The notes beneath the pieces are model-generated. The model was not told the DNA's origin and did no database searches. It saw nothing but the letters and a program-made list of their open reading frames with translations. Shown here in pieces: positions 51,327 through 58,748 of a stretch of 64,000 bases of DNA (position 1 is the first letter of the stretch; each line of letters starts with the position of its first letter). Source of the DNA: Heterostelium album PN500 (Eukaryota; Evosea; Eumycetozoa; Acytosteliales; Acytosteliaceae); assembly GCF_000004825.1 (NCBI RefSeq), contig NW_008805064.1:1860001-1924000 (forward strand), written 5' to 3'. A program made the translations under genes and the position numbers.

Positions 51327-53520
51327 ATGATAGGTGTATTGGGAGAAGCGGATTTGGCCAAATGTCAAGAGTTGCTTCCAAGAGATCAGAGTTTTGTAAC
51401 GGGATTCCCGTTGCTGCTGCTGCAGAATAACAGCACTATCAGTCATGCCAAGAGTAAGATACGAACGTACAGCTCAACACTGGTGGCACTGCTGCTGACG
51501 GACCGCGAAATCTTTTTGTTTCCGCTTTTGGATGACAACAGCCAGCATCTCGAGATTCTCGGGCGTTCGAAACTGCACGACATCTCATCGGTTCAAACCG
51601 GTTACTTGCACAGCAGTTCGTCGTCGATGAAGTCACCGCTGGTCAACTCGACCGACAACGACGGTGTTCTACTGAGCAATCTGAGAACATCGCCAGGTCA
51701 ATACTCTATGAAGATTTCCTTTAGAAAAGGTGGTGTGGCGGCGACAACCACTACAACAACCTCATCGACATCGTCGTCATCGTCGACCTCTACAACACCA
51801 ACCTACACAACACCAATACCACCGACAACATCATGGACACTCATGACATTCTCACCCAACGACACACCCGATATCCAAAAAGAGCGAGTTCTCAAGATCG
51901 TAGCAACAGTAAACTCTATGGTTAGAGATTCACTGATACAACAGAAACTAGAGGCTCATCTCAACACCTCTGAGAAAATAACAATACCAAATGTATATTA
52001 TAAAACTGGTGATTTATTAGTAAGTTATATAAATATATAGTTATTATAAAAATCATAATATAAAACTAACTTGTATCTCTCTCTCTCTCTCTCTCTCTCT
52101 ATAAATTAAATAATAATTAGATTGAAGGTGAAATATATTTAACATTACAAAGACTATCGTTTATTCAAAAGTGTGTAAAAGATTTAAATCTGAAAATTTT
52201 AAAAAAGAACAAAGATAACTACAGTTTTTCGATCGACACCATTTCCATTTATGAGTGTAAGCAATCCGAATTGAAATGTGTAAAACACCATCAATCGGTT
52301 ATACTTTCATCTCAAGGCAAAACACCTGATATCAAATCTTCTTATTTATTTTGTTTCCTTAAATCAGAGTATGTATAAATATAATAATATTATAATTTAT
52401 TGATTGATTATTAATAATCATTTTTATTTTATTTATTTGTTTATTTATTTTAGGATTGCAGAGATTACAAATAATATTATTAGAGTTATAACAGAAAGTC
52501 AAGATATAGTAGATCAAGTTGTGATGGAATCACAACATCATGGTAGTAGTAATGGTGTGATCAATTTCAATGGTAATAGTGGTAGTGTGGGAACTGGTGG
52601 TGGTAATAACGATCAGAACAAGTCAAAGCTATCGACTTCGAATTTGAGTGACAGTGAATTCTTGTTGGTCGATGAAATCGAGAATTTCAACGAGGTCGGT
52701 AGTTCTAATGAACAAGACACCTACATCGAAGAAGAAGAAGACATTCACCTGACAGCAAACAGCTATCAAACTAAACTAGATGACCAACCAACACATCATC
52801 CCACTAAAATCAACTTTAAAGTAAATTCCGATATATTAACAAACGATGATATGTTATGGGTATGTAATAATGTTATATAACATTAATTATCTAATCAATT
52901 CACTTTACTAATAACGATCATATTAAAATAACTACATAACAATAACTAAACACAGATACAAAGTCATTTACCATTGAGACATAACGATGATATTTTAGAA
53001 TTGGCATACAGCACACTAAAGAATGGTATCAGTATAAAGACATTTTTCTCGAGACTGCGTGATCGCTCACCTTGTATAATGGTGGCAAGAGACGATCGTG
53101 GACATATATTCGGTGCATTCACTTCGGATCCTTGGAATGCAGAAGAAAACCATTCACTATGGAAGTGGTGAGACATTCCTCTTCAAGATCAAGCCAGACC
53201 GCAAGAAGTATCCGTGGACACGTATCAACGATGATTTCATGTTGTCAACGAAAGAGTCGTTCATTTCGCTGGGCAGTGGTGGTAAGGGTGTTGGACTGTG
53301 GATTGACGAGGAGTTGTTCTATGGTAGTTCCAACCGATGCGAAACATTCAACAATGATATCCTCGCGCACAGCTCCGACTTTAAACTCATCGATCTAGAG
53401 GTGTGGTCGCCCGTCCTCAAAAAGAGCGACAAAGTCAAACAAACAAATGCTACCGACTTTTTCGGAACCACCTACACCTATAAACCTCCACCAAGAAGAT
53501 TCAACGCTTTTGGTATATAG
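51327..53520 (+). CDS. GRAM-TLDc protein (OXR1/NCOA7-like), single-base frameshift in the TLDc domain
   Basis: Exons 51327-52019, 52121-52368, 52454-52859 and 52956-53520 encode about 636 residues. The first exon has Ser/Thr repeats and segments such as STLVALLLTDREIFLFPLLD. Across the first intron a GRAM-like part reads GDLLIEGEIYLTLQRLSFIQ. The TLDc domain fills the last exon: LPLRHNDDILELAYSTLKNG, FFSRLRDRSPCIMVARDDRG, FGAFTSDPW, then YGSGETFLFKIKP, LGSGGKGVGLWIDEELFYG, CETFNND and FKLIDLEVW. GRAM plus TLDc is the OXR1/NCOA7 architecture, proteins that protect against oxidative stress and, in animals, bind V-ATPase. The reading frame changes between FGAFTSDPWNAEE and YGSGETFLF; one extra A in the run at 53149-53152 explains it completely. 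The start is the first in-frame ATG, but an upstream exon is possible. Confidence 0.83.
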
Positions 53521-54300: not shown

Positions 54301-55485
54301 ATGTACAAATCATTATTTATTTATATTGTAATTGCGTTGATTGCTTTTGGAGTAGTATCAGCAGACACCGCAACAACAACAACAATTGTTTCACCAACAG
54401 ACAGTTTGGTTCATTATGTTGGAAGATTTGATAAAGGTCAATCCGATCAGTACTATGGATTTTCGTGGAGTGGCTGTCAGATAATAGTCAATATAACGGG
54501 TACTACTCAGATCGGTGTAGTTTTGAACTCTCAGCTACCCAATTGGTTCGATATATACATCGATGGTAGTTTGTATTACAGACCTTTCAATGTGAGTGCA
54601 GCACCACCACAGCAACAACAGATAGCATTGGTCGACAATCTAGATAGCAGCAAAACCTATGTTATCTCGATATCGAAGCGTACGGAAGCAGAGTTTGGTG
54701 AAGTTAGATTCTATGGTTTCTCAGTCGATCCAACTTACTCTTTGAATCGTTACAATCCACCTACCACTCGTAAATTTGAATTCATTGGCGACAGTATTGC
54801 AACTGGTTATGGTGACATGGGTAAATCACCATGTTCATTTACAGAATCTACTGAAAATGTTGATTTGTAAGTATTAATTATAGTTAGTTGTTGTTTGTTT
54901 GTTTGTTTCAATTGGATAACCAACTAACAATCAAAATTATTACTAAATAGGTCATTCGCAGCAGTCATTACAAATGAATTGTTGGGTGAAATGAATATGG
55001 CGGCATGGCAAGGAAAAGGTGTTATTAAAAACTATGGTTCTTCGACACCGACCTCTACAGAAACACTACCGGATCTATATCCTTTCATTTTGCCATTGTC
55101 AGACAACTCTAGCTATTGGAATCCAACTGAATTCGTACCGGATGTTCTGGTGGTGAATTTGGGTGCCAACGACTATACCGATCCACCTTATCCAACACAA
55201 CAACAGTTTGAGTCAACGTTCATTTCATTTATCAAAGTGATACTCGCCGGCTATTATCCTTCACAGCCGAAACTCTTTTTCATTTGTGGTGTTATGATTG
55301 GTGATCCCGTTACCTGTACCTACACAGAGAACGTCGCCAATGTCTTCAATGCAACTTATATCGACATGCCCAACATTCAAGATAGCTCCTCTGATTTCGG
55401 TTGTGATGGACACCCTACTGTTAGTGCTCATGCTCATATGGCAGCAATTGCAATTCCAATCATAAAGCAAGTAATGAATTGGTGA
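54301..55485 (+). CDS. Secreted CE2-type SGNH carbohydrate esterase
   Basis: Exons 54301-54866 and 54951-55485 encode 366 residues. A signal peptide (MYKSLFIYIVIALIAFGVVSA) is followed by a beta-sandwich N-domain (VHYVGRFDKG, IGVVLNSQLPNWFDIYIDG, KTYVISISKRTEAEFGEVRF) that matches the jelly-roll domain of carbohydrate esterase family 2. The SGNH domain has block I FIGDSIATGYG (Ser nucleophile near residue 164), an Asn block in NLGANDYT, and the terminal CDGHPTVSAH with Asp and His. CE2 enzymes deacetylate plant or microbial polysaccharides. Here an extracellular or lysosomal role against food-bacterial or self glycans is likely. The intron splits the codon after the first SGNH block. Neighbours offer no functional hint. 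Confidence 0.85.
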
Positions 55486-56315
55486 AACAATTAATATTCG
55501 TTTCATAATCAAAAAAAAAAAGGTTAATTCAATTTAAATAAATAATTGAAAATGAGTGCGAAAATTATCATAACAAGTTGAACTTCAAAAAAATGTACAT
55601 TTTTTTTAAATTTAAAAAAAATCTTAATAGTTTTTTTTTTTTTGTGATCATTGCTTTCAAAATTTTTCTGTTTCTCGAAGAATATATCGTATTGGTCATA
55701 CAGATCATAAAGTTATTAACATGTTTAGATATAGTTGATATCAAAGTATATAATTATATTACTCAAATTCTAGAGGATGAAATATAAAAGATGAAAATAT
55801 AGTCGTTGTATATAAAAATAGTGTGGAATATGAGAAATAGCATATATATCTGATTATTTATAATAGTATATACAACACACATCTAACAATAGAAAGACAA
55901 TGTAGTATTAAATTAATTTTTAAATATTTTTATTATTATTCAGAAGTTCACTCATTAATCCCCGCAATATCTGATTGATATATTCAATTCAATTTTATGA
56001 TTGACAAATTAATATTAAAAAAAAAATAAAATAAAAAATAATAAATAATTAATAATATCGATTGACAAGTTATCAATGATAGTTAAAGAGGAACTATAAA
56101 ATGAGAGGTCAGTTGTTGATTCTTCAGTTCAATTCAAAATCAAACAAACATCATCAAATAAATAGTTATTTGTACAACAACAAATATATATATTTATATT
56201 ACTTTTGTTCAGAAATCAATAGATAGTATCTCTAAATACAAAACAACAAATACATATATTCTTATAAATACTGTATTCATTTATTACAACAAAATATTTA
56301 CAAATTACAACAAGA
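55486..56315. other. Intergenic region, promoter and leader of the small SIAMESE-like gene
   Basis: 830 bp of A/T-rich DNA. From about 56100 it changes to CAA/ATC-rich sequence typical of dictyostelid 5' leaders (CAAACAAACATCATCAAATA near 56140), ending in a good start context (ACAAGAATGGC). A TATA-like CTATAAAATGAG lies at 56094-56105. A short frame at 55578-55787 is not coding. Confidence 0.45.
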
Positions 56316-56501
56316 ATGGCACTATCAACATCAGATATTCAATCAACAAATAATAACAATAATTGTTTATTTGATCGATCATCGACACCACCCCCACCAA
56401 CAGAGTCTCATAAAGAACCAATATGTCCAGGTGCGCCAAAGAAGAAACGAATTGAAATACAAAGAAGAAATACTGCTATTTCAAGAATTCTATTTCAATA
56501 A
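56316..56501 (+). CDS. 61-residue protein resembling plant SIAMESE/SMR CDK inhibitors
   Basis: A single exon with a strong start context encodes 61 residues. Its N-terminal third is Ser/Asn-rich. Residues 21-45 read RSSTPPPPTESHKEPICPG, then APKKKR. The order TP, His, Pro, CPxAPKK+R mirrors the core box of plant SIAMESE-RELATED cyclin-dependent-kinase inhibitors (TPTS, H, IP, CPPAPRK). The C-terminus contains SRILF (residues 56-60), an RxLF cyclin-docking type motif, and RR basic residues upstream. The inferred role is binding cyclin-CDK and restraining the cell cycle, possibly at the growth-to-development switch. The box is short, so convergence or chance is possible. It has its own leader and 3' flank and does not overlap other genes. 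Confidence 0.55.
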   Translation: MALSTSDIQSTNNNNNCLFDRSSTPPPPTESHKEPICPGAPKKKRIEIQRRNTAISRILFQ

Positions 56502-56968
56502 TTATAACAACAATCAAAAATAAATGTATTTGTATTATATCTCTAAATTATTTCCTAATCAATATTATTTATATATTTTAATAATATTTGAAAATAGAAG
56601 AGCAGCAATGTAGAATACATACAACTCTTAAGTAATGATCAAAACAAATACAATCATCAGATATTATTCAAATAAATTAAAAATATATGATATTATATTC
56701 ATCAACATATTTCCAGACAAATTAATTAAGAATAAGTGTGAAGTTCATTTACAACTTCCTGTAAAATTCATTTGTCAAAATGATTAAAACTAAAAAAATT
56801 AAATAATTTTAATTCCCGATTGTAAGGTTATGAGGAATAATGGAATGTTTTTTTCCAATAAAAAAATGGAAAAAGATTTTCAATCAGTTTAAGAGGTCTG
56901 AAATGCAACTTAAAAATAGAATTAAGTAAATTAATTTAAAAAATAATATCAATTAGAATTTAAATAAA
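56502..56968. other. A+T-rich gap before the DDE gene
   Basis: Contains 3' flank of the small gene and promoter of the DDE gene. A short imperfect hairpin (TTTTTTCCA with TGGAAAAA) lies at 56849-56876. No terminal inverted repeat matching the downstream side of the DDE gene was found. Confidence 0.4.
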
Positions 56969-58020
56969 ATGATGAATAATATTAATAATCTTAAAAAAAA
57001 GGGTAATGCCAGCCCAAAGAAGAATTGGTTTTCAAACAGAGTTCATTCGGCATTGAGTTCAATCGTCAAGAAAAGAGAAAGTCTATCAATAGAAACAATC
57101 AAGTATTTGCGAACTAAGCTTCAGAATAATAGTCAGCACAAGAACAAAAGAAATGATGGAGTAAGTTCATCAAAATTAAACTTAGATAGAAGTTCAATGA
57201 TCAGAGATAATACTGTCAATGGTAGTTCAGCAGAAGAAAGAAAATTATACACCACAAACATTTCGAAAGATAAAAAAGATTTAGATAATAGTCTTTCGTA
57301 TGTAAATTTAAGAAATTTTAAATATATATTTATTCTTACTAAAAAAAAAATAATAAAAATAGTGATCTAAGTAAATTAATGATTGAGTTGAAAAAAGGAT
57401 GGGTTTCAATGGAGAATGACCCAAAATATTCACCTGAAAATTTAAAAGAGTATATGTGTCATTTATACTGGATTCATAAACAAGATACAAACACTTTGGT
57501 ATTTATGGGTGATTATAATAACAACAACGATAGTGAACTAAACAAACAACTGTCAACTCCTGATAGTTTTATTAGTGCAATGTTAAGAGACAATGGAAAG
57601 CTATTCATATCATCCAAAAGAGATCAACCAATCGACACACTTGAGTTCATACTTGAATCCATTGAAAAAGGTTATCTTGTGGGTGGTGATATTTTGGTGT
57701 TGGACCACAATGTAATTTATGGTGGTGAAGAAACTTTGAAATATATTCTTTTTGCTCTGGGTATTGCCAATATATCTATCAGATTCTTACCAATTAACTC
57801 ACCAGAACTGAATCCAATTGAAAGCTTATTCAATGATGTCAAGACTAAAAGTATCGAATATAGCAATTGGCAAGAGGTATTCGATATTTCTACGATCAAG
57901 GGTCTCTTTACAAGATCAATGAATCCATGGGATAATAATGATCAATCTTGGAGATATTTAGAAAATCTATTGATCAATACAATCAAGTCAGCCATCGGTG
58001 ATCAAAATAATCCTAATTAA
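56969..58020 (+). CDS. Transposase-derived DDE protein (DDE_3, IS630/Tc1-like), probably domesticated
   Basis: Two exons (56969-57297 and 57363-58020) with a phase-correct 65-bp host-type intron encode 328 residues. The first 110 are basic and Asn/Ser-rich with no recognisable DNA-binding fold. The rest follows the RNase-H-like DDE superfamily: first Asp in TLVFMGD (near residue 160), second Asp in GGDILVLDHN (near 224) and the Glu in FLPINSPELNPIESLF (near 263). The last segment is close to the LPxYSPxLNPIExxW hallmark of IS630/Tc1 proteins, with a spacing near D39E. The full acidic triad is retained. No terminal inverted repeats, target duplication or second copy is seen, and codon use matches the host. 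A captured transposase gene is more likely than an active element. Confidence 0.72.
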
Positions 58021-58237: not shown

Positions 58238-58748
58238 ATGATTGAAATAGAAGTTAAGATACCGTTCAATGATAGAATAAGGAATCAGCTATTACAATAC
58301 AAAGTTGAAACTATTGGAGAACAATCATTTACAGATGTTTACTATGAAGATGAAAACTATAGTTTGACCACCAGAAACATCTGGTTAAGACAAAGAAATG
58401 ATATATGGGAGTTGAAATTACCAAGATCATTATCATTTAATAATAATCAGCAAATACAACAACAAAATAATGATGTCAGAGCATATAAAGAAGTATTCGA
58501 GTTGAAAGATCTATACATTGAACTATCTAGTGTATTGATCGATCAAAAAGTAGAAGGATACCAATGAAAAGGTGACCCAAGCAAAACAACAGATAGATAC
58601 ACTACTAGAGAAACTCGATATCAAAAGCACATTAAACTCAAACAAGACAAAACTACATGGTAAAATACTTGAGTTAATCAAGAGAACAGATTCACATCAT
58701 TGGCAAGCATTGATAGATTCAAGCAAGACATCATTATTACTCATCTAA
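58238..58748 (+). pseudogene. CYTH/thiamine-triphosphatase-like gene with internal deletion
   Basis: The first part (58238-58567) has the CYTH signature: EIEVKI (ExExK) at the very N-terminus, then FTDVYYED, TTRNIWLRQRNDIWELKLP and YKEVFE, as in thiamine triphosphatase (THTPA). It stops at 58565 after EGYQ. Overlapping in another frame, 58572-58748 reads KVTQAKQQIDTLLEKLDI, KLHGKILELIKRTDSHHW and a stop, matching the C-terminal helices of THTPA. The central block of about 60-70 residues carrying TxR, the lysine/arginine substrate ligands and the EIE pair of the tunnel is missing. No intron can account for it. It was probably a cytosolic enzyme cleaving thiamine triphosphate and is now likely inactive. 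Confidence 0.6.

Follow-up and report, generated by a model that had tools for sequence, protein, structure and literature searches.

The p21 and p27 inhibitors of the CIP/KIP class use cyclin docking of the RxLF type, the type to which the family described here also conforms, and in p27 the docking motif lies N-terminal of the kinase-binding part. The core of the plant SIAMESE/SMR proteins reads TPT…IP…CPPAPRKP. In the available text on Sic1, a CDK inhibitor of S. cerevisiae, a tested docking peptide, RVNRILFPT, is described, and an R/KXL motif is said to be bound at the hydrophobic patch that Clb5 carries; the peptide altered Clb5-dependent phosphorylation solely when its RXL was intact, and for Cln2 a peptide lacking RXL was equally effective (PMC3115021). 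The same excerpt states that the RXL motifs steer the phosphorylation of Sic1 by Clb5 at TP sites and assigns inhibition to a separate C-terminal region (PMC3115021). For yeast Cdc6, the accessible part of PMC6620034 states that TP sites and cyclin docking together make the protein an M-CDK inhibitor, and that Cks1 binds phospho-Thr and not phospho-Ser. The SMR proteins are described in the excerpt of PMC10904545 with a motif A, mutations of which disrupt the binding of CDKA;1, a motif B, and a motif C, which is the cyclin-binding EIERFF; the available text of the maize SMR work gives a TP motif and a PxxP motif, with other residues following (PMC7389639).

The window analysed here is a stretch of 64,000 nucleotides (C3:1860001-1924000) in the genome of Heterostelium album PN500, which was searched as 32.9 Mb in 39 contigs and which by its size, its AT content and its Asn-rich proteins looks like that of a dictyostelid. 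An intronless ORF of 61 amino acids lies on the forward strand (56316..56501, +) and its translation is MALSTSDIQSTNNNNNCLFDRSSTPPPPTESHKEPICPGAPKKKRIEIQRRNTAISRILFQ followed by a stop codon. The first-pass annotation had described a 61-residue product combining TPPPP, a His, CPGAPKKKR and RILF, and the translation bears this out at the exact coordinates, with TPPPP at residues 24-28, His32, CPGAPKKKR at residues 37-45 and RILF at residues 57-60. The opposite strand of the same interval is interrupted by stops, and the GC content of the ORF is 0.333 compared to 0.195 for the 200 bases 5' and 0.187 for the 300 bases 3' of it. A TATAAA 5' of the ORF (56095..56100, +; a second one at 56263) may be a TATA box, and an AATAAA 3' of the stop codon (56519..56524, +; a second one at 56671) may be a polyadenylation signal. 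The length of the ORF alone is no evidence for a gene, because, when intergenic sequence was simulated 5000 times at a length of 1420 bases, one strand carried an ORF of at least 61 amino acids in 258 cases. Single motifs also prove nothing, since they are common in shuffles of the protein: among 20,000 shuffles, TP occurred in 46%, RxL[FLMP] in 8.5% and RVxF in 7.0%, and the frequency of CPxAPxKK was 0.0000. The ORF is raised above chance by its conservation in two paralogues of its own genome and, as judged from the sequence, it is a real gene.

Other ORFs of the forward strand lie around this gene. A TLDc domain is represented by its C-terminal half in the ORF at 53137-53520 (+; PF07534, E 8.2e-21), which is probably a single exon, the gene itself starting further upstream. 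Two same-frame ORFs at 54301-55485 (+) showed the N-terminal domain of carbohydrate esterase 2 (PF17996, E 2.7e-14) along with a GDSL lipase match slightly below the model cut-off; they are probably a single gene interrupted by an intron. The two ORFs next 3' of the gene (56969-58020, +) may, from their sequence, be a transposon-derived gene, the second of them (57379..58020, 213 amino acids) having a DDE_3 endonuclease match (PF13358, E 2.3e-7). A CYTH domain (PF01928, E 7.1e-7) is encoded by an ORF at 58238-58567 (+).

The search of the genome with the window protein revealed two paralogues, namely L002 on contig C14 (a 154-amino-acid ORF, E 3.0e-8) and L003 on contig C6 (65 amino acids, E 1.7e-6). 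When L003 and the final 99 residues of L002 were used as queries in turn, the same three genes were returned, in searches that score the best candidates only and may miss distant members of the family. A fourth genome match, L013 (E 9.33), was without the box described below and was dropped. The three-gene family is real and has no library model: no Pfam model reached its cut-off in any of the three proteins, and NCBIfam, which is a prokaryote library, gave no match to them. A Pfam Dmrt1 match of the window protein (E 0.026) was taken as chance, its 15.4 bits being below the cut-off of 22. The PDB gave a single match with the window protein, at E 1.7, and none with the three-member profile. 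A peptide pattern matched 67 stretches in the viral collection and 70 in the prokaryote one, and tblastn confirmed none of them. The differences at third versus second codon positions were 13 vs 4, 14 vs 7 and 8 vs 7 for the three pairs, which is weak evidence because the last pair hardly differs. Judged from composition alone, the members of the family are probably disordered.

The N-terminal parts of the proteins are less alike. In its N-terminal region the window protein is not significantly similar to L003 or L002, as 1600 and 896 of 5000 shuffles, respectively, scored equally well. A second motif, M…SFSNLS[IM]N, is common to L002 (1372-1413, +) and L003 (1692-1651, -) and may mark the true start of both, and the window protein has no clear copy of it. 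The true start of L002 may be its internal Met 56, which aligns with the start of L003, a similarity of sequence that 150 of 5000 shuffles reached.

The strongest conservation was found in a gapless C-terminal module of 26 residues, which begins with the Pro two positions ahead of the Cys, ends with the Phe of RILF and reads PICPGAPKKKRIEIQRRNTAISRILF, PKCPSAPKKKPVVKSRRGSAIPRILF and PICPGAPIKKYVPIERRGTAVPRILF in the three proteins. Its consensus is P-x-CP-x-AP-x-KK-x5-RR-x-[ST]-A-[IV]-x-RILF, with 14 positions (P, CP, AP, KK, RR, A and RILF) invariant in all three; these conservation figures rest on three paralogues of one genome. In the window protein the P-I-C-P-G-A-P-K-K-K box occupies residues 35-44 (56418..56447, +), and the CPxAPxKK pattern occurs three times in the DNA of the genome, once in each family gene, compared to 0 for the reversed control. 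The DNA pattern RILF-x-stop was unspecific, with 93 genome matches against 57 for its reversed control. Between the box and RILF lies RRNTAI (residues 50-55; 56463..56480, +), of the RRx[ST] consensus, which reads RRNT, RRGS and RRGT across the family, so that Ser and Thr interchange; it is a candidate site for a basophilic kinase, PKA presumably being the obvious one. The basic run PKKKR (residues 41-45; 56436..56450, +), which resembles an NLS, is not preserved in this form in the paralogues. The TP at residues 24-25 (56385..56390, +) is a candidate proline-directed phosphosite; a TP is present in each of the three proteins, out of register, its distance to the Cys being 13, 10 (or 8) and 3 residues, and TP occurs in 46%, 49% and 37% of the shuffles of the three proteins. 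With L002 counted from Met 56, each of the four [ST]P sites that precede the box is a TP; an SP at residue 21 of L002, when the ORF is read at full length, precedes the likely start and is left out of this count. Among the elements singled out in the first-pass annotation, the box and RILF are kept with fixed spacing in all three members found in the genome, whereas the register of TP varies and His32 is not conserved, a Tyr being nearby in both paralogues.

The RILF of the window protein (residues 57-60; 56484..56495, +) is a predicted RxLF cyclin-docking motif close to the C-terminus. It is invariant in the family, where it is identical to the core of the tested Sic1 peptide RVNRILFPT, and position -2 is aliphatic (I, I and V), as is the V of the Sic1 motif RXL2, which in the available text of PMC3115021 likewise has Thr CDK sites on its N-terminal side. 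A Cyclin_N search of the genome gave 14 matches, of which 13 were translated. Two of these, the B-like cyclin L014 (MRAILVDW…KLQLVG) and the A-like cyclin L015 (MRSILVDW…QFQMIG), keep the groove residues at what we take to be the groove positions of human cyclin A, and the others were left unclassified. A CKS was also found (E 9.0e-25). The elements located in the genome therefore comprise the family, its module, two groove-bearing cyclins and CKS; Cdk1 is not among these, and for Dictyostelium a single cdk1 is stated in the excerpt of PMC3386910. Docking of a cyclin by RILF, as the annotation had proposed, is well supported at the level of sequence and somewhat more likely than not.

The same four residues could be read in two further ways. 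RILF also satisfies the RVxF pattern of PP1 partners, [RK]x(0,1)[VIL]{P}[FW], in all three proteins, and the family might then be a PP1 docking or inhibitor peptide of the [RK][VI]xF form, controlled by phosphorylation of the RRx[ST] site alongside. The Phe is trailed by one or two residues and a basophilic site adjoins the motif in every member, which is consistent with such a role, although the pattern is also met by 7 to 21% of shuffles. RVxF leaves its third position free, but every member of the family has Leu there, as required by RxLF, which needs both L and F; residues -1 to -3 before RILF are not basic, and a CPxAP box is not a known feature of PP1 inhibitors. The invariant Leu would thus favour RxLF over RVxF, on the evidence of three paralogues of one genome, and a PP1 peptide is considered unlikely. 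A MAPK D-site has the pattern RR-x6-I-x-F, and both RR and I-x-F are kept at fixed spacing in the three proteins, where TP would also be a MAPK site. This docking mode, or another short-motif role outside the cell cycle, is quite improbable: it leaves the invariant Leu and the CPxAPxKK box unexplained, and RILF, being identical to a cyclin-docking core that has been tested, fits that core better than the D-site.

Cyclin docking by RILF may have different outcomes. RILF argues for docking and not in itself for inhibition, because the inhibition by Sic1 is placed in another region of that protein. The family could consist of docked substrates or adaptors of CDK, in which RILF would recruit cyclin–Cdk1, TP would be phosphorylated, and the box would bind, for example, a PxxP reader or aid nuclear import. 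The NLS-like PKKKR of the window member is in line with the latter. In all three proteins the TP precedes the docking motif, and in the accessible text on Sic1 the RXL motifs direct phosphorylation at TP sites (PMC3115021). The best-conserved part, however, is the stretch from CPxAPxKK to RILF with its fixed spacing, and it is the position of TP that varies; a substrate or adaptor role is a less likely alternative.

The explanation which we consider best, with a probability of roughly 0.4, is that the family docks cyclin–Cdk1 as a competitive inhibitor. The identity to the tested docking motif suggests that [IV]-x-RILF would sit in the hydrophobic groove of A- and B-type cyclins, and the P-x-CP-x-AP-x-KK box, located upstream of it, would reach toward the kinase. 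There A-P-x-K may mimic a CDK site, S/T-P-x-K, in which Ala stands where the acceptor would be, and so act as a pseudosubstrate, a reading that rests on three positions. The distance from the Ala of A-P-x-K to the Arg of RILF is 17 residues in all three proteins, compared to 20 from the Ser to the Arg in the CDC6 peptide 2cci_F, which was presumably crystallised with CDK2–cyclin A. The upstream TP, when phosphorylated, might be held by CKS; groove docking, box and TP together would then give competitive inhibition of cyclin–Cdk1. A basophilic kinase such as PKA could toggle the docking through the RRx[ST] beside the motif. If docking does take place, inhibition of cyclin–Cdk1 would be a reasonably likely consequence. 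It is a speculative and rather unlikely extension of this that the genes form a dictyostelid family of microprotein CDK inhibitors of its own kind, in which an A-P-x-K pseudosubstrate, a Sic1-type RILF clamp and a PKA-type switch would link the kinase of starvation and development to cell-cycle arrest, the CPPAPRK of plant SMR proteins perhaps being the same solution, by descent or convergence.

Compared with the known inhibitors, the proposed arrangement has parallels and differences. The part of Sic1 that was studied carries four RXL motifs, its inhibitory C-terminal region is a separate one, and a CPxAPxKK box is unmentioned in the available text of PMC3115021. Cdc6, as described in the excerpt of PMC6620034, resembles the family in having Cks1 TP sites and a cyclin-docking motif in a disordered segment, but it docks through LxF rather than RxLF and is a replication licensing factor. 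In the family RILF lies C-terminal of the box, which is the reverse of the order in p27. Membership of the KIP/KRP class was rejected, the CDI domain (PF02234) being unmatched in the three proteins and, with E values of up to 10 allowed, in the genome as well; that genome search, which had no eukaryotic positive control and gave only a below-cut-off Bacillus subtilis signal in 14 control genomes, could miss a domain split by an intron.

The first-pass annotation had called the product SIAMESE-like, and membership of the SIAMESE/SMR proteins is not supported. A true SMR homologue, arising from a plant–Amoebozoa ancestor or by transfer, would account for the order of TP, then a PxxP box with basic residues, then a cyclin-binding end in a small protein, which parallels the SMR motifs A, B (PxxP) and C. 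A motif B-like P-[GS]-A-P followed by Lys is present in the three proteins; PxxP is a weak test, however, because it occurs in 50 to 53% of the shuffles of the three full proteins. L002 reads STPTPQNYVPKCPSAPKKKP, which is near the SMR core. Approximate sequences of SIM, SMR1 and SMR5 were aligned with the three proteins (nine alignments, 1000 shuffles each). For SIM and SMR1 against the window protein, 8 and 1 of 1000 shuffles, respectively, scored as high, and these two alignments were read as composition since the proline runs pair out of register. Two alignments were in register, that of SMR1 with L002 (STPT…P…KKKP) and that of the SMR5 PPCPPPVRRKR with the PICPGAPKKKR of the window protein, for which 53 and 122 of 1000 shuffles, respectively, scored as high; the remaining five gave 20, 34, 261, 897 and 974. 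EIERFF is absent from all three family proteins, which have RILF instead, and the spacing of TP is variable. According to the available text of PMC10904545 and another report, SMR homologues are absent from algae, so vertical descent would need losses there. With motif C missing and no significant in-register alignment to these approximate plant sequences, filing the family under SMR is unjustified and true homology is very improbable, though the family may work like SMR. Literature searches with CPPAPRK- and CPGAPKK-type box letters gave no match, and among the matches listed for the letters CPPAP none was on SMRs by title.

The available text of PMC3386910 states that Dictyostelium is without identifiable CDK inhibitors, in agreement with the annotation, which had noted the lack of well-known ones in dictyostelids. 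Among the literature matches listed, judged by title and the start of the abstract, no CDK inhibitor was reported in Dictyostelium (these include PMC3386910, PMC7098662 and PMC2872877), and a search for SIAMESE-related proteins in Dictyostelium, judged in the same way, gave nothing relevant. The family is therefore a testable candidate and, with moderate confidence, appears to be a good one for the missing type of CDK inhibitor. Three genes with a conserved predicted docking end are now named candidates for knockout and assay. If inhibition is confirmed, they would represent a type of CDK inhibitor in which the box precedes the clamp, in reverse of the CIP/KIP order, and the finding would bear on whether the plant SMR box predates land plants.
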